Below, piece by piece: positions 4,905 through 17,024 of a stretch of 64,000 nt of DNA; the stretch's first letter is position 1; each line of letters starts with the position of its first letter. The stretch is from Thalassovita mediterranea (lineage in GTDB: Bacteria > Pseudomonadota > Alphaproteobacteria > Caulobacterales > Hyphomonadaceae). The notes below the pieces were generated by a model that had not been told where the DNA came from, did not search any database, and saw only the letters and a program-made list of their open reading frames with translations. Made by a program: the position numbers and the translations under genes. The stretch covers positions 1,302,001 to 1,366,000 of the forward strand of contig CP080408.1 of NCBI GenBank assembly GCA_019448215.1, in the 5' to 3' direction.

Positions 4905-6713
<1,809 letters not shown>

Positions 6714-9897: not shown

Positions 9898-12066
9898 CTA
9901 CAGGAAGGAATACGGATCGATATCTGCAGAGATTCTCACAGGGTTCGGGAGCTTCAGCCCCTTTAACCATGCCGCCATATAAGCCGAGAGATCCACGTCG
10001 CGCGGGCTGGTGATGAGGAAGCGGATGCGGTGGCGCCCGCGCAGCAGGGAAATTGGCGCAGGGGCGGGGCCATAGACCGTGACGCCCTCACCGTTCGGCG
10101 CGGCGGCGCCCGTCAGGCGGCCTGCTTCTTCGATGAGTTGCGGTGTGGGTGCCGACAGGACGAGTGCTGCCATGCGTCCGAAAGGCGGTAGCATAAGCTC
10201 GGCGCGCACATCCCGCTCGATCTGCAGGAAGCCGTCACGGTCGCCTGCCGCTAGCGCGATCATGGCGGGGTTTTCTGGCCCATAGGTCTGGATGAGGGCG
10301 CGTCCCGGGCGCTCGGCCCGCCCAGCGCGGCCTGCGACCTGGCTCAGCAGCTGGTAGGTGCGCTCACCAGCGCGAAGGTCGCCGCCCTTCATGCCGCTAT
10401 CGGCATCGACCACGCCGACAAGGGTGAGGTTCGGGAAATTGTGACCCTTGGCGACGATCTGTGTGCCGATCAGCACGTCTATCTCTCCGCCAGCCATCCG
10501 GTCGACAATGCCGCGCGTCTCTTCGCCGGAACGCGCCGTGTCCGAGGAGAAAATTTCGACCCGCGCCTGTGGCAGCAGGACGCGGACTTCTTCTGCGACA
10601 CGCTCCACCCCGGGGCCGACGCCCATGAGCGAATCTTTTGCCCCGCACATCGGGCAGGCTTCGGGCTTTGGCATCGACCAGCCGGTCAGGTGGCAGACGA
10701 GGCGATTGGTGTAGCGGTGCTCGGTCAGCCAGCTTTCGGTGCCGGGGCTTTTGAGGCGTTCCCCGCAGGCCTTGCAGATGACGAGCGGGGCATAGCCGCG
10801 CCGGTTCAGGAAAAGCAGGCTTTGCTCACCCGCCTCAAATGTAGACACAAGCGCATTAGACAGCGTTGGCGAGAGCCAGTTGCCTTTTTCCGGCGGGTTG
10901 AGACGCAGGTCGACAAGTTCGATATCCGGCAGGCGGGCCGCACCAGGGCGGGCAGAGAGCCGGAGGCGTTTGTAGCGGCCAGCCTCGGCATTCACCATTG
11001 TCTCCAGCGCAGGCGTCGCGGAGGCGAGAACGATGGCAGCGTCTTCGAGCTTTGCGCGCATCACGCCCATGTCGCGGGCATGATAGGTGACGCCGTCTTC
11101 CTGTTTGAAAGATGTGTCGTGCTCCTCATCCACGATGATGAGTTTGAGATTGCGGAAAGGCAGGAAGAGCGCAGAGCGCGCGCCGATCACGATGCGGGCG
11201 CGGCCATGTGCGGTCTCACGCCAGGTGCGGCGGCGTTCAGCATCCGACAGGCCCGAATGCCAGGGGGCGGGCGGCGCGCCGAAGCGGGCTTCAAAGCGGG
11301 CGAGCACGGCCTGCGTCAGGGCGATTTCCGGCAGGAGGACGAGAACCTGCGCATCGTCGGCCTTCTGCAAAGCTTCGGCGATGGCTTCGAAATAGACTTC
11401 TGTCTTGCCGGACCCCGTGATACCGTCGAGGAGGAAGGGCTGGAAGCCGCCCTTTGCGATGGCGCGGCGTAGCTCATCGCCCGCCGTTTTTTGCTCGGCT
11501 GTCAGATGTTCGCCGCCCTCAAAGCGGGTGGGCTGCGGGTAAGGCAGGTCCGTTTCAACCTCGCGCGCTTCAAGCGAGCCGATATCGACGAGACCTTTCA
11601 CCACGCCGGGGGAGACGCCTGCCTGTCTTGCCAGTTCTGCCGCGCTGGTCGGGCCAGCTTCGCGGGCGGCGTCGAGCACTTTGACCCGCGCTTCGGTCAT
11701 CCGGTTCGAGCGATATCCCGTGGGCACATACACAGTTGCGGTGGGCGATGGCTTCAGACCGCCGCGCGCCCGCAGCACCATGGCGAGTACATGGCCGGGA
11801 TGGGCGACATTATAGCGGGCGGCAAAGCTCACGAATTTACGCATCGGCTCTGGCATGGCCGGGACGGGGTAGACGTCGATGACGGGTTTGAGGTCACGCG
11901 TGTCGTCCTCGGCGCGGGTCTTTACGGCCCACACCACGCCGGTGCGCTCAATCTTGCCCAGCGGCGCGCGCACATAGCTGCCGGGTTCGACATCCATGCC
12001 ATCGGGAATGGCATAGTCGAACGGCTCAGGCAGCGGCAGCGGAAAGAGGATGCTGGCGATCTTCAT
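9898..12066 (-). CDS. priA: Primosomal protein N' (replication restart helicase PriA)
   Basis: This 722-residue protein carries an N-terminal DNA-binding domain, a helicase core with Walker A GITGSGKT (about 215-222) and the Walker B box VDEEH near residue 306, and a zinc-binding insertion with CKAC and CPMC pairs. The conserved GTQIVAKGHNFPNLTLVGVVDAD stretch is helicase motif V. PriA reloads the replisome at stalled forks. ATG 12066 (MKIASIL) is preferred to an in-frame TTG two codons upstream. It lies next to the ATP synthase operon and divergent from the 1279-residue gene; xerC, a common PriA neighbour in alphaproteobacteria, follows that gene. Confidence 0.97.
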   Translation of the reverse strand: MKIASILFPLPLPEPFDYAIPDGMDVEPGSYVRAPLGKIERTGVVWAVKTRAEDDTRDLKPVIDVYPVPAMPEPMRKFVSFAARYNVAHPGHVLAMVLRARGGLKPSPTATVYVPTGYRSNRMTEARVKVLDAAREAGPTSAAELARQAGVSPGVVKGLVDIGSLEAREVETDLPYPQPTRFEGGEHLTAEQKTAGDELRRAIAKGGFQPFLLDGITGSGKTEVYFEAIAEALQKADDAQVLVLLPEIALTQAVLARFEARFGAPPAPWHSGLSDAERRRTWRETAHGRARIVIGARSALFLPFRNLKLIIVDEEHDTSFKQEDGVTYHARDMGVMRAKLEDAAIVLASATPALETMVNAEAGRYKRLRLSARPGAARLPDIELVDLRLNPPEKGNWLSPTLSNALVSTFEAGEQSLLFLNRRGYAPLVICKACGERLKSPGTESWLTEHRYTNRLVCHLTGWSMPKPEACPMCGAKDSLMGVGPGVERVAEEVRVLLPQARVEIFSSDTARSGEETRGIVDRMAGGEIDVLIGTQIVAKGHNFPNLTLVGVVDADSGMKGGDLRAGERTYQLLSQVAGRAGRAERPGRALIQTYGPENPAMIALAAGDRDGFLQIERDVRAELMLPPFGRMAALVLSAPTPQLIEEAGRLTGAAAPNGEGVTVYGPAPAPISLLRGRHRIRFLITSPRDVDLSAYMAAWLKGLKLPNPVRISADIDPYSFL

Positions 12067-12242
12067 CGCCAAGAGGTGTAGTCGCAGCCTCTCTTTTCGT
12101 CACCCGGCAGAAAGCGGCCAATCCTGCCCGGTGCGCAGCAGGCAGCGGCCGTGATTCCCGAACCAGGGGAAGGTTCTGGACTTGGGCCTGACCATCTCTA
12201 GGGTTGAGCGGGCTGGACCAGAATAATTGAGGGTGGGGTCTT

Positions 12243-15200
12243 ATGCTGCTGAATGATGGCCGCTGGAGTGAAGCGGACACCGATGAGATTGTGCGCGAAC
12301 TTCTGCACGATCTGGAGCGACCGGCTGACAGGAAGGCGCTGCAGGATTTCGCGGCCCGAAACCGGATCGTTCAGGCAGCTACCCATCCGTTGAGCTTCTA
12401 CGGAGATGGTCAAAGCTACAGGCTTGTCCGGCTTTCGCTGACGCCGGATGCGATCCGCGCAGGCGACCGTTATGCGCGGGCCTATCTCTGCTACATCAAG
12501 GGCCCGCAACTGGCGCGCTATCTGGACGGCTCAAGCACCGTCATGCACCAGACGAATTCGCTGAAGCTCGCTGGTAGCGGCAAGCCGCTGATCCAGCTCA
12601 CGACCGATGAAAAGGTCGTCGACTACCTCAAATTCTTTTGCACCTTCACGACGGGCGAGGCGGGCCCTTTCCTGATCCTCGACAGCGTCGATGACCTGGC
12701 GTTTGGCGTTGATGGTGAGCTTCGCCAGGGCAGCACGTTCGAGCAGATGTGCGCCGTGCGTGCCCGTGACACAGGCTGGCCAGAACCGCTGCTTGAACTG
12801 ACCGAAGCAGACCTCAAGGCGTGGCGCGAAGCCCCGCAGGACAAGGAACGCGAATTCAGGGAACGCGCAGCCCGCGAACACCAGCAGTCGATGGAGCCGG
12901 TTGATCTCACCCGCGTGAGCCTCGAGCAGCCGCGCGTGACCGAAAAAAGCTTCGACCCTGAAACCAAGCAGCGGAACGGCGATATTGCGGTTGCCTCGCT
13001 TTGGTATGGGCCGGCTATCTTCAATGCGCGCTTCCGGGTCTACGCTAATGGCTCGATCGAGATGCTGGAAGACCGCCCGATTGCGCCGCTCAACATCTCC
13101 AGCTGGCGGTTCCTGTCACCGTCCGGCATCCTGGTGCGTGAGGATCATGTCTCGCGGTCGGATCTGTCGGCCACCGATTTCGTTGAGCAATTCATTGCGG
13201 GGCGACAGCCGGAGCAGGCGCTTCATATCGCCAATCTTTCGATTGGTGGGGATGTCGATCTGAGCGGGCTCGAATTTGGTGGTCCCGTTACATTTGAGAA
13301 TGTCATGATCGACGGCGAGCTTGCCCTCAATGGCTGCCGTTTTGCCAAGGGGTTGAGGCTGGACAGGGTCGAGGTGACCGGGCGGCTGATGGCGAGCAAG
13401 CTCAATGCCCGCTTTGTCACGTCGAGGCGCCTTCGCATTGGCGGCCTGTTCGAGATCCGCGGATCTGTGGCCGATGACAGCGATGGCAATCCGCCTTTCG
13501 GCGCGGACTTTTCCCGCGCCCTCATCGAAGATGAATTCGTTCTGCCGGGCACCGAGGTGAATGGCGGCTTCAACCTGTCCGGCATCAAGGTGAAAGGCGT
13601 TGCAGACCTGTCGAATTTGAAGGTGGAGCCGCGTCTTGCCGCCTCGCTGACGGCCTATGAAGAGATGGGGCGGCTGACGGTGGCGGATAATGTTCGCGGC
13701 GCTTCAAGCTATGATGCGGGCCTGCATGCACGTGGGGCCGTCCTGAATGAAGGGCTGAGCCTGAGATATTCTCAGGACGGCGCAAGTGAACCAAAGTTCC
13801 AGATCAGGGGCGGCGTCGATCTCTACAATGCATCGATTGCCGGCGAGATCGATCTGGCTGGTCTTCAGACTGGTTTTGTGAACCTCGCCCTCGCGCCACT
13901 TGATCCAGGCAAGGCCGAGGAGAAGGACCAGGCAGCCGCCTTTGATCCAAAAACAAACAAGGTAACTTCCCGCATTCCGGAAGTTGCGTCCGCCAATTTC
14001 TGCTTCAACTCTGCCAGGATTTCTTCCAATGTGAACGCAGCGGGCGCCGCTCCGCGAACGCTCATCCGCGGCAGTATCGACGGCAAACACTCCGACATTG
14101 GGGGGCGGGTTGTTCTTGATGGAGCCCGGATTGGCTGCACCGAGCAAGAAATCAGGCCGTTGGCGCCAAACCTCGTGAGCCAGACCGGTGCTATCGAGTT
14201 TGCCGATGCCGCGATTGGCGAGTTCTCGTTGTTCTGGGCAGTAAAATCTGACGGAACGCAGATCAGGCCAAGCTGCCGCTCCTTGACCTTCCTGAATGCA
14301 AAGGTCGAGGGGGCCATGATCGTCATGGCGGCTGAGGTCGCAGGCGACGTTGAGGCGTCACACGCCAGTGTCGGAAATGGCATCCGCCTCTGCGGCTCAA
14401 CGATTGGTGGACGGCTTGATCTTGGCGGCGCCTATATCGGGCAAATGCTGGACGGCGACAGCCATGAGGACATCGGGCGCACGGTCGTGACCGGGCAGAT
14501 CACGCTGAGCGGTGCAACCGTCAAGTCAGATGCCCGCTTTTGCGGCGCGTCGATCAAGGGCGGCGTCACGGCAATCACAGGCGACTTCTCGCGGATGCAG
14601 TTTCGCGCGCTCTGCTGGGAAAAGGACGGCTCCGGGGAGATCATCCCCATGGAGAGCGGGCCGATCATGCTGAACCCGCTGAAAGCTCATTCCATCGACC
14701 TGTTCGGCTGTCAGATCGAGGGCGATCTTTCTCTTATCGGAGGTGAGTTCGAGGATGGTATCCTGATCTGCCGCCACGACCCGTCCGTCTACCTCTTCTA
14801 CGGTTTCGACGAGAAGCTCGCAGCAAAGGCGCAAGCGGATACGATCGAGAAGAACAGCCTCGTCACCAGAGTGTCAGGCAAGACACGGCTCGCCCATGCG
14901 ACGGTGGGTGGCGACATTGATCTCTCAGGTTTCGATTGCGGCAAGGAGCTGGAACTGAGCGCCGTGAGTGTCGGGCGTACGATAAGGGCCTGCTCCATAG
15001 ACGGGTTTGAGAATGGGGCGCCGAAAAAATTCCATGTGGTCTGCGACCGGTTCGAGGCAAACGATCTCGATGTGAAGGGGCATGCCAATCTGGGCGGCAT
15101 TGACGCCAAGGGCGGCCTGCAGGCGAGGTTTGGATCATTCGGTGCAGAGCTGACCATTCTGGACATGGCGCCGAGCGGGAAGATCAAGAAGAATGATCGG

Positions 15201-16082
15201 CCGAGCGTCGACCTCTTCGGGACCAAGGGGGATCGGCTCAAGATCGGGTGCGGGGCAACGGGCGTTGGCCGGATCGACCTTCAGGGCGCCGAGTTCACGC
15301 AGATCACTGTCTGCAATCCGGACAAGGTGAGCCTCAACCCCAAGGGGCTGCAGGTCGGGCGGTGGGCCTTTACTGACAAGGATGGACATTCGCTATCGAA
15401 TGAGGGCCAACGGCTCTTCCAGCTCCTGAAACGAAGCGAATTCGATCAGGGAGTATATGGCGAGGCGGAACGCTGGTTGCGCAGGCGCGGCAATGAGAAC
15501 GCGGCGGACAGGCTGCATATATCGGGGCGGGCGCAGGCGGCGCGGCGCAGGCGCAGCAATTATGCGCTCTGGTCGAAGCCCTTCCGGGTGCCGGTCGACG
15601 CGCTGGTCGATTTCTTTCACCGGAACATGACGGGATACTGGACGCGCAGCTGGCCGCTAATGGCGATCTGGACTGTTTTGTTCGTGCCTAGCGTGCTGCT
15701 GGCAAGCAATCCGGCGAATATCGCGCCGAGTGCCATTCAGTTAGGCGAGCAGGAGACGCGCGCTGTCCGGGACATCCGTCCTGAGGCTGAAGACTGGTCG
15801 CCGCTGGACGTCATTCGGGTGGTCGCGTCCAATCATGTGCCGATCATACCACTCGTCGCGGAGCCGCGCTGGGAGTATCATGATCAGGCACCAGCAGAAT
15901 TCAGAGTGCCGGAGATTGTTCAACCCTATTTTCCTGTAGATAGCGAGCCTGCCGAAATGCGGACGCCGCGTTTCCTGACGCCTGCTTTCTATGGATTCTG
16001 GGTGCGGGTGTTCAGCTGGATTGCGCTGCCAGTCTTCCTGATTTCGACGGCGGCGAGCATCCAGCGGCGCTATAACCTCTAG
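12243..16082 (+). CDS. Giant (1279-residue) beta-helix-like protein with two C-terminal membrane segments, function unknown
   Basis: I cannot assign a function. Residues 1 to about 240 form a globular, charged region. From about 330 to 1050 the sequence is built of irregular short repeats of the type GDVDLSGLEFGGPVTFENV and IGGRLDLGGAYIG, in which small/Leu/Asp patterns recur every 20-25 residues, as in right-handed beta-helices or pentapeptide-like solenoids. A helical, Arg-rich stretch follows (about 1056-1105, RRRGNE..., AARRRRSN), then hydrophobic segments at about 1136-1155 and 1248-1272 around a 90-residue loop. No signal peptide is visible. The layout recalls proteins that databases call membrane-associated oxidoreductase, but I see no cofactor motif to support that name. 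It separates priA from xerC. Confidence 0.75.
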   Translation: MLLNDGRWSEADTDEIVRELLHDLERPADRKALQDFAARNRIVQAATHPLSFYGDGQSYRLVRLSLTPDAIRAGDRYARAYLCYIKGPQLARYLDGSSTVMHQTNSLKLAGSGKPLIQLTTDEKVVDYLKFFCTFTTGEAGPFLILDSVDDLAFGVDGELRQGSTFEQMCAVRARDTGWPEPLLELTEADLKAWREAPQDKEREFRERAAREHQQSMEPVDLTRVSLEQPRVTEKSFDPETKQRNGDIAVASLWYGPAIFNARFRVYANGSIEMLEDRPIAPLNISSWRFLSPSGILVREDHVSRSDLSATDFVEQFIAGRQPEQALHIANLSIGGDVDLSGLEFGGPVTFENVMIDGELALNGCRFAKGLRLDRVEVTGRLMASKLNARFVTSRRLRIGGLFEIRGSVADDSDGNPPFGADFSRALIEDEFVLPGTEVNGGFNLSGIKVKGVADLSNLKVEPRLAASLTAYEEMGRLTVADNVRGASSYDAGLHARGAVLNEGLSLRYSQDGASEPKFQIRGGVDLYNASIAGEIDLAGLQTGFVNLALAPLDPGKAEEKDQAAAFDPKTNKVTSRIPEVASANFCFNSARISSNVNAAGAAPRTLIRGSIDGKHSDIGGRVVLDGARIGCTEQEIRPLAPNLVSQTGAIEFADAAIGEFSLFWAVKSDGTQIRPSCRSLTFLNAKVEGAMIVMAAEVAGDVEASHASVGNGIRLCGSTIGGRLDLGGAYIGQMLDGDSHEDIGRTVVTGQITLSGATVKSDARFCGASIKGGVTAITGDFSRMQFRALCWEKDGSGEIIPMESGPIMLNPLKAHSIDLFGCQIEGDLSLIGGEFEDGILICRHDPSVYLFYGFDEKLAAKAQADTIEKNSLVTRVSGKTRLAHATVGGDIDLSGFDCGKELELSAVSVGRTIRACSIDGFENGAPKKFHVVCDRFEANDLDVKGHANLGGIDAKGGLQARFGSFGAELTILDMAPSGKIKKNDRPSVDLFGTKGDRLKIGCGATGVGRIDLQGAEFTQITVCNPDKVSLNPKGLQVGRWAFTDKDGHSLSNEGQRLFQLLKRSEFDQGVYGEAERWLRRRGNENAADRLHISGRAQAARRRRSNYALWSKPFRVPVDALVDFFHRNMTGYWTRSWPLMAIWTVLFVPSVLLASNPANIAPSAIQLGEQETRAVRDIRPEAEDWSPLDVIRVVASNHVPIIPLVAEPRWEYHDQAPAEFRVPEIVQPYFPVDSEPAEMRTPRFLTPAFYGFWVRVFSWIALPVFLISTAASIQRRYNL

Positions 16083-16127
16083 CGGTCTCAATACCCCCTT
16101 AACCCTGCGCGCTGACACTCCACCCTC

Positions 16128-17024
16128 ATGGAAATCCTGTCGGCCTTTCTGGACCATATTGCGCGTGAGCGCCGCCTCGCGGCGAATACGGTTGAGGCGT
16201 ATGGCCATGACCTTCGCAGTTTCTTTGACTTCCTTGAGGACCATCTGGGCGAGCCGGTCGCGATCAAGGCGTTCAGGCACCTTCATGCCAGCGACATTCG
16301 CGCCTTCCTTGCCAAGCGCAGACGTGAAGGGCTGTCGGATACGTCGGTGGCGCGGGTGCTGTCGGCGATAAAGACCTTCTATCACTGGCTCGATGATCAT
16401 CACGGTATGGAAAATCCGGAGATTGCCTTCCTGAAAGGGCCAAAGCGCCAGTCGCGTCTGCCGCGTCCGGTCTCTGTCGCCGCGGCGCGGGACATGATCG
16501 AGACGGTGGAAGCGAGCGGGGTGGAGCCGTGGGTGGCGGCGCGGGACGCCGCCGTGCTGACGCTGCTTTACGGGTCGGGGCTTCGCATCTCTGAAGCACT
16601 TGATCTCAATGGCGACATGGTGCCTGCGCCAGAACGCCTGCGGATTGTGGGCAAGGGAGGCAAGGTGCGGCTGGTGCCACTTATCCCGGCAGTGCGGCGC
16701 GCGATTGATGAATATGCGCGGCTTTGCCCGTACAGGCTGACGGGCGAGACTCCGCTTTTCTATGGTGTACGCGGCAAGCGGCTGCAGCCCGCCATCGTGC
16801 AGCGCGGCGTTCAGGTGTTGCGCGGTGCGCTGGGCCTGCCGGAAACGGCAACGCCACACGCCCTGCGCCATGCATTCGCGACCCACCTTCTTTCAGCGGG
16901 CGCGGATCTGCGCGCGATCCAGACGCTGCTTGGCCATGCGAGCCTGTCGACGACGCAAGTCTATACCGGCGTTGATTCGGAGCGTTTGCGGGCCGTTCAC
17001 GCCGGTGCGCACCCTCGCGGCTGA
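16128..17024 (+). CDS. xerC: Tyrosine recombinase, XerC type
   Basis: This 298-residue protein has an N-terminal SAM-like core-binding domain (1-100) and a catalytic domain with the full active set: R153, K176 or K179, H244, R247, H270 and the nucleophile Y279. XerC and XerD resolve chromosome dimers at dif near cell division. XerC and XerD are hard to separate by eye; the location near priA, seen in many alphaproteobacteria, favours XerC. No dif-like site is visible nearby. The gene follows the giant gene by 45 bases. Confidence 0.92.
   Translation: MEILSAFLDHIARERRLAANTVEAYGHDLRSFFDFLEDHLGEPVAIKAFRHLHASDIRAFLAKRRREGLSDTSVARVLSAIKTFYHWLDDHHGMENPEIAFLKGPKRQSRLPRPVSVAAARDMIETVEASGVEPWVAARDAAVLTLLYGSGLRISEALDLNGDMVPAPERLRIVGKGGKVRLVPLIPAVRRAIDEYARLCPYRLTGETPLFYGVRGKRLQPAIVQRGVQVLRGALGLPETATPHALRHAFATHLLSAGADLRAIQTLLGHASLSTTQVYTGVDSERLRAVHAGAHPRG

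Follow-up and report, generated by a model that had tools for sequence, protein, structure and literature searches.

Architecture of the gene between priA and xerC

The window analysed here is a 64,000-nucleotide stretch of the Thalassovita mediterranea genome (contig CP080408.1, positions 1,302,001 to 1,366,000), in which a 1279-residue open reading frame (ORF) lies between priA and xerC. The initial annotation, made from the letters alone, had placed it there, and the ORF call and the Pfam matches of both neighbours agree. The predicted protein combines an N-terminal domain (N-domain), a repeat rod and a C-terminal module with two transmembrane (TM) segments, with the following features in window positions:

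12243..16082, + strand: complete ORF with ATG start, 1279 residues; N-domain, beta-solenoid-like rod and C-terminal two-TM module
12243..13112, + strand: N-domain, residues 1-290; unnamed alpha+beta family with a charged, low-confidence insertion at about 154-245
13158..13202, + strand: fusion joint (residue 306 onwards), aligned with the beginning of a separate second gene in genome G088
13203..15392, + strand: repeat rod, residues ~321-1050; 11/22-residue periodicity, Pentapeptide_3-like
15432..15938, + strand: C-terminal module, aligned residues 1064-1232; common to the rod-2TM family described below (27.0 bits)
15528..15557, + strand: Arg-rich stretch before TM1, residues 1096-1105 (RAQAARRRRS, by eye)
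15651..15707, + strand: hydrophobic segment 1, residues 1137-1155
15987..16043, + strand: hydrophobic segment 2, residues 1249-1267

That this is a new, well-defined architecture carrying an unnamed domain is well supported. The sole Pfam match of the window protein is to Pentapeptide_3 at residues 335-376 (34 bits, cut-off 27), and no match at E ≤ 1 was found in NCBIfam, PADLOC or the PDB sequences, while PHROGs gave a single match (E 0.047). Pfam revealed no P-loop nucleoside triphosphatase (NTPase) at E ≤ 1, and the protein did not qualify as a STAND NTPase; nor was a pore domain or an oxidoreductase domain matched in Pfam.

The initial annotation had described a protein with no signal peptide, an Arg-rich helix and two C-terminal hydrophobic segments around a loop of about 90 residues, all of which is borne out: the N-terminus is neither hydrophobic nor signal-like, the Arg-rich stretch is evident and 93 residues separate the two segments. 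Residues 1186-1253 of the loop are net acidic (5 K/R versus 9 D/E), and the tail from residue 1254 has three K/R and no D/E. The lack of a signal-like N-terminus, the Arg-rich stretch ahead of TM1, the acidic loop and the tail free of D/E make a rod linked to the membrane from the cytoplasmic side the best reading. Its N-in/C-in arrangement is predicted through the positive-inside rule, a charge-based argument, rather than through a topology measurement. In this respect, the cytoplasmic, membrane-linked scaffold first proposed keeps its location, but not its description as simply a scaffold of unknown function, as the N-domain had been overlooked.

The N-domain is a separate family

Judged by sequence comparison, residues 1-290 form an independent domain, whose family has gene contexts of its own. 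Using the window protein as a class-level query, we obtained matches in 9 of 385 genomes, including its own; in seven of the other eight, the match fell solely within residues 65-157, in proteins of about 204-351 residues. The window sequence as the only query reaches N-domain relatives at E 5.5e-10 and 2.5e-8, and it matches the N-domain profile, including its DYL[KR]FFC and GPF motifs, at E 8.2e-59 with the A2 alignment, in which the window sequence is itself included. A nine-row N-domain profile extended the distribution to 25 of the 385 genomes (own genome included) and 42 places, and a scan of genome_contigs yielded 128 confirmed loci. Among the best 80 of these 128 loci (L048-L127, stand-alone proteins), on which the genome_contigs figures rest, the record titles name nearly all alphaproteobacterial or proteobacterial metagenome-assembled genomes (MAGs), 16 of them Micavibrio, and 78 of the 80 ORFs are shorter than 300 residues. 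Two N-domain loci, L072 and L108, are gammaproteobacterial by name. The stand-alone proteins, mostly of about 205 residues and 28-34% identical to the window protein in the alignment, share the N-domain with it and have neither the rod nor the C-terminal module. No Pfam or NCBIfam match covered the domain in the N-domain proteins tested, and no publication describing it was recognised in a literature search judged mostly from titles and the beginnings of abstracts.

The initial annotation had suggested AlphaFold modelling followed by a Foldseek search. The model of residues 1-301, built from 68 rows, has a mean predicted local distance difference test score (pLDDT) of 74.5 and a predicted template modelling score of 0.70; its core is well predicted, and pLDDT falls below 50 at residues 154-186 and 236-242. 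Foldseek returned no match for this fold in PDB or BFVD at E ≤ 0.001. A second look at the matches over residues 121-283 gave monellins with Z up to 4.4 and cystatins up to 3.3, all below 5. The best-scoring chain (Z 4.6) belongs to a different protein with the annotation putative nuclease, and the scores of NTF2-like and VirB8 chains are similar. The tool classes the monellin and cystatin values as unspecific.

The repeat rod and the rod-2TM family

The region that had been described as a solenoid of about 700 residues corresponds to the repeat rod. Its aliphatic autocorrelation peaks at 11 and 22 residues, then at 5, and the motif [IVLF]xGx[ILVM]x[LFIM] occurs 10 times, whereas 1000 shuffles average 1.2 occurrences and never exceed 6. 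The single-sequence model of residues 291-1279 had a mean pLDDT of 39.6 and was not used; since no confident model was obtained, it is the repeat pattern and the Pfam match that justify the label 'solenoid'. Relative to pentapeptide repeat proteins, the window protein exceeds the Pentapeptide_3 cut-off, yet only at residues 335-376, and its strongest periods are 11 and 22, with 5 coming next.

Profile comparisons place the rod and the two TM segments in a recognisable, scattered family, which we call rod-2TM. The eighth match of the class-level query, the 807-residue protein L010, pointed to 23 plasmid records, of which 16 are from Streptomyces. Members of the family (Streptomyces L166 and L167, rhizobial L046 and L047) share with the window protein the C-terminal module and, in L046 and L047, a Pentapeptide_3-like rod; they differ in that no N-domain was found, in their length (480-807 residues in the six aligned) and in some signal-like N-termini. 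L010, L046 and L047 start with such a hydrophobic, signal-like N-terminus (partly by eye), so their rod would sit outside the cytoplasm. Some of the plasmid records carry the product names 'oxidoreductase' or 'membrane-associated oxidoreductase'. The Streptomyces 'oxidoreductase' products L166 and L167 have no NCBIfam match, and the name 'membrane-associated oxidoreductase' appears to be without domain support in the proteins tested.

A six-row profile of the C-terminal module (A6) matched 14 of 385 class genomes, and the genome of the window was not found by it at E ≤ 1e-3. Against an iterated model of 32 rows, built from relatives and G088 without the window sequence and with some rows representing the same gene twice, the C-terminus of the window protein scored 27.0 bits, a value reached by none of 1000 shuffles (best 13.9). 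Profile comparison of the whole rod and module with the rod-2TM family gave a probability of 95%, whereas the module alone, compared as a single-sequence profile, gave only 2.4%, so that the case for its homology depends on G088 and the iterated model. The ORF is a real gene, since its N-terminal part has homologues down to E 5.5e-10 per genome and the score of its C-terminal part lies beyond all shuffles.

In six aligned relatives, an L-D-x-L-L-P-I-type motif is kept between the TM segments. This would be compatible with a membrane effector whose TM segments and motif open a pore upon triggering or cleavage of the rod or the N-domain, and peptidase genes lie near two relatives (a caspase and a C1 peptidase on psymA of S. 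meliloti, a trypsin-like peptidase in Mesorhizobium). Nevertheless, the motif is degenerate in the window protein (HVPIIPLV), which has no Pfam pore domain, and 14 other loci lack a recurrent peptidase neighbour, so that we regard a pore-forming role as improbable. In those 14 loci, from 13 genomes, no Pfam family was found at E ≤ 1e-5 in more than two of the 93 neighbouring ORFs; the survey, which set G095 and G088 aside, lists 25 of 102 families, with singletons mostly unseen, and its ORFs were chosen by length, so some are spurious. A working link between the rod-2TM family and peptidases, suggested by the two plasmid cases, was dropped on the basis of this survey.

Two genes in G088 correspond to the two halves

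In G088 (L160, minus strand), two adjacent genes, 10008-8224 and 8227-5540, overlap by ATGA. The first encodes a protein of about 594 residues with the N-domain, and the second an 896-residue protein with the rod and TM module. In blastp, the first protein matches window residues 94-280 (E 2e-8) and the second matches residues 428-1266 (E 2e-10) and 306-928 (E 3e-10), with an identity of 28% in the alignment and 22-23% by blastp. The order of the halves is the same in both genomes, and the difference is that G088 has two overlapping genes where the window has one. Since the start of the second G088 gene aligns with residue ~306, where the joint is located, the window gene is the fused form. 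A third fused or split example was not found, the second half being matched in 2 of 337 class genomes (its own and G088). The G088 pair constitutes the best evidence, at the level of gene arrangement, that both halves may work together. By eye, the N-domain protein of G088 seems to hold a second, degenerate copy of the domain.

Genomic contexts of the N-domain

Apart from the stand-alone proteins, the N-domain is found fused to large modular proteins. On a Sinorhizobium meliloti plasmid (L043), it is the last part of a 1695-residue frame that also contains nSTAND1 and ankyrin repeats; in Thiodictyon (L044), it ends an AAA_16 protein with a TPR match below its cut-off; and in Ketobacter (L108), it ends an ankyrin protein whose gene is clustered with AAA, AAA_5 and VWA_CoxE ORFs, the VWA_CoxE match being below cut-off. 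We take the AAA_5 ORF to be MoxR. In an Ectothiorhodospiraceae MAG (L072), the ORF with the N-domain overlaps with a frame of 1380 residues in which the AAA_16 and nSTAND5 matches are both below cut-off. At L043 (6858-9173, minus strand), an N-domain gene is 3 bp upstream of a type IV secretion system (T4SS) coupling-protein gene. Together with a coupling-protein gene near the N-domain in L108, such cases were too few to maintain a T4SS link, which was dropped.

The second context is that of DUF6782, a putative metallopeptidase family. A DUF6782 gene is the next ORF in three inspected N-domain loci, with an HExxH motif in two of the three. In the 385-genome sample of the class, DUF6782 exceeds its cut-off in 12 of the 25 genomes with an N-domain and in 7 of the 360 others (19 of 385 overall), and a same-strand match lies within 1.5 kb at 9 of the 42 N-domain places, in six genomes, with a tenth case in L162; these co-occurrence counts are lower bounds, as at most seven DUF6782 candidates were scored per genome. 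In G160, a DUF6782 gene is flanked on both sides by N-domain genes. The Pfam scan of N-domain neighbours left out G102, G159 and, except for one ORF, G075. Seven genomes (G062, G110, G132, G248, G276, G342 and G419) contain at least seven DUF6782 copies each, some in tandem, as in G062 contig 249 and G110 contig 70; an N-domain gene is among those in G110.

The same-strand adjacency of the two genes, including the flanked case in G160, and the HExxH motifs would suit an immunity or inhibitor function, in which a DUF6782-type metallopeptidase effector is bound and inhibited by the N-domain, itself kept by the rod at the membrane through which such an effector would come in. The monellins and cystatins among the look-alikes of residues 121-283 would point in the same direction, but their Z values are unspecific and shared with NTF2-like and VirB8 chains. 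Moreover, an inhibitor is not needed to account for the STAND and ankyrin fusions, DUF6782 is only putative as a toxin, and, unlike the genomes with DUF6782-associated pairs, the genome of the window has no DUF6782 match at E ≤ 0.001. We consider this explanation unlikely.

A recent gain in the priA-xerC spacer

The gene is flanked by two housekeeping genes:

9898..12072, - strand: priA, left neighbour, divergent (Pfam)
16128..17024, + strand: xerC-type tyrosine recombinase, right neighbour (Pfam)
12107..16081, + strand: stretch absent from the empty site, ~3975 bp compared with 18 bp in G004; the window gene is its only content

The statement that priA and xerC are usually close holds within the genus. 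The XerC search provided a locus in 23 of 24 same-genus genomes, and in 21 of these 23 the start of PriA, taken as the first matched PriA residue (1-5), lies ~68-1352 bp upstream of xerC, at most 234 bp in 16; in the other two, the sequence covered did not show it. G004, whose listed XerC identity is 100% and whose PriA is 98.3% identical over 467 residues, has a priA-xerC spacer of 98 bp, as does G020. By-eye comparison with these two loci (L129 and L130, respectively) places the right end of the inserted stretch inside the stop codon of the window gene. Queried with the window protein, none of the 28 other same-genus genomes contained it (1 of 29 searched). A protein search of 61 genomes found the own genome and one match in G036 (E 3.8e-4, residues 582-690, two in-frame stops), rejected as due to chance. 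Full-length relatives were found neither among plasmids, phages and viral contigs nor in genome_contigs, the latter scanned with exact peptide patterns that detect close relatives only. The comparison indicates that the window gene is a recent, single-gene gain. Another single gene occupies the spacer in 5 of the 21 same-genus loci (L132, L136, L137, L138 and L140), by eye presumably one GNAT-like and four enoyl-CoA-hydratase-like ORFs. Given these different single genes in addition to the window gene (spacer 12073-16127), the spacer seems to have served repeatedly as a landing site.

Being absent from 28 of 28 same-genus genomes searched, the gene is not a conserved structural part of the genus. 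This distribution bears on the initial proposal of a structural envelope scaffold without a role in conflict, which would agree with the size of the protein, its rod and membrane anchor, and the lack of a recurrent neighbour in the rod-2TM family. The contexts of the N-domain are harder to reconcile with it, and because the N-domain is a separate family with contexts of its own, and the rod-2TM family is wider, we find a purely structural scaffold doubtful and less likely than a receptor or adaptor. A single-gene insertion in one of the 29 genus genomes searched could be a recently acquired gene without a selected function in its host. However, its 1279 codons are free of stops and G088 retains both halves side by side, with an identity of 28%, which makes a gene without function quite unlikely.

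Elsewhere in the window, the atpD ORF (4905-6701, - strand) is open for ~120 residues upstream of its usual start. This upstream part has a His/Cys-containing stretch followed by an Ala/Lys/Pro-rich linker; either the protein has a long extension at its N-terminus or the start is wrongly assigned.

A proposed membrane-tethered adaptor or receptor

We tentatively propose, with less than even confidence, that the window protein is an adaptor or receptor of the conflict type, tethered to the inner membrane and facing the cytoplasm. The two C-terminal TM segments would span the inner membrane as a hairpin, and the rod, reaching into the cytoplasm, would serve as a spacer and as a surface for assembly. 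At its far end, the N-domain may recognise a protein partner belonging to a conflict pathway, either defence or effector, and binding would recruit or neutralise this partner at the membrane. A partner of this kind is suggested by the fusion of the N-domain to STAND-type and repeat-scaffold proteins and by its position next to putative metallopeptidases.

Section 7 and further passages of a study of MoxR-vWA and STAND conflict systems describe repeat scaffolds, including pentapeptide repeats, as their superstructure-forming parts (Kaur et al. 2020, PMC7159879); the N-domain is not described in that section and those passages. Contexts resembling those systems are seen for N-domain proteins in L043, L108 and L072, whereas the window protein has no NTPase and its neighbours are priA and xerC, neither MoxR, vWA nor STAND.

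Several observations weigh against a conflict role. No conflict partner gene was found beside the window gene, and its genome has no match to Peptidase_C14 (caspase) or DUF6782 at E ≤ 0.001, so that a search for co-occurring genes, as suggested in the initial annotation, links DUF6782 to the N-domain elsewhere but not here. PADLOC recognised nothing in the window protein, the second G088 gene, L072 or L044, and what it matched in L043 and L108 were models of the ankyrin type. The N-domain has no significant fold match, and the rod-2TM survey revealed no recurrent neighbour. The association with DUF6782 (Fisher p = 1e-11) is overstated by this value, as several of the counted genomes are related. 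The N-domain copy of Tistrella has metabolic neighbours, and in 43 of 63 tabulated genome_contigs loci, housekeeping-like ORFs of the rnpA, yidC or yidD kind, names that we assign by eye, lie within three ORFs of the N-domain gene; the family is thus not only a conflict module. The stand-alone family has a stable genomic place in part of the alphaproteobacteria.

A broader version of the adaptor or receptor proposal, distinctly less probable than the proposal itself, is that the N-domain is an undescribed recognition domain across STAND-type proteins, MoxR/vWA-linked repeat proteins, metallopeptidase operons and the membrane rod. The window protein would then be an NTPase-free, one-gene, membrane-anchored bacterial immune receptor or decoy, with the N-domain displayed on a cytoplasmic solenoid stalk.

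An unnamed domain now has a set of contexts comprising STAND-type ATPases, an AAA/vWA-like cluster, putative metallopeptidases and a membrane rod, and its occurrence as two genes in one genome and one fused gene in another provides a natural experiment. If the N-domain is a recognition module, its ligand would connect these systems.

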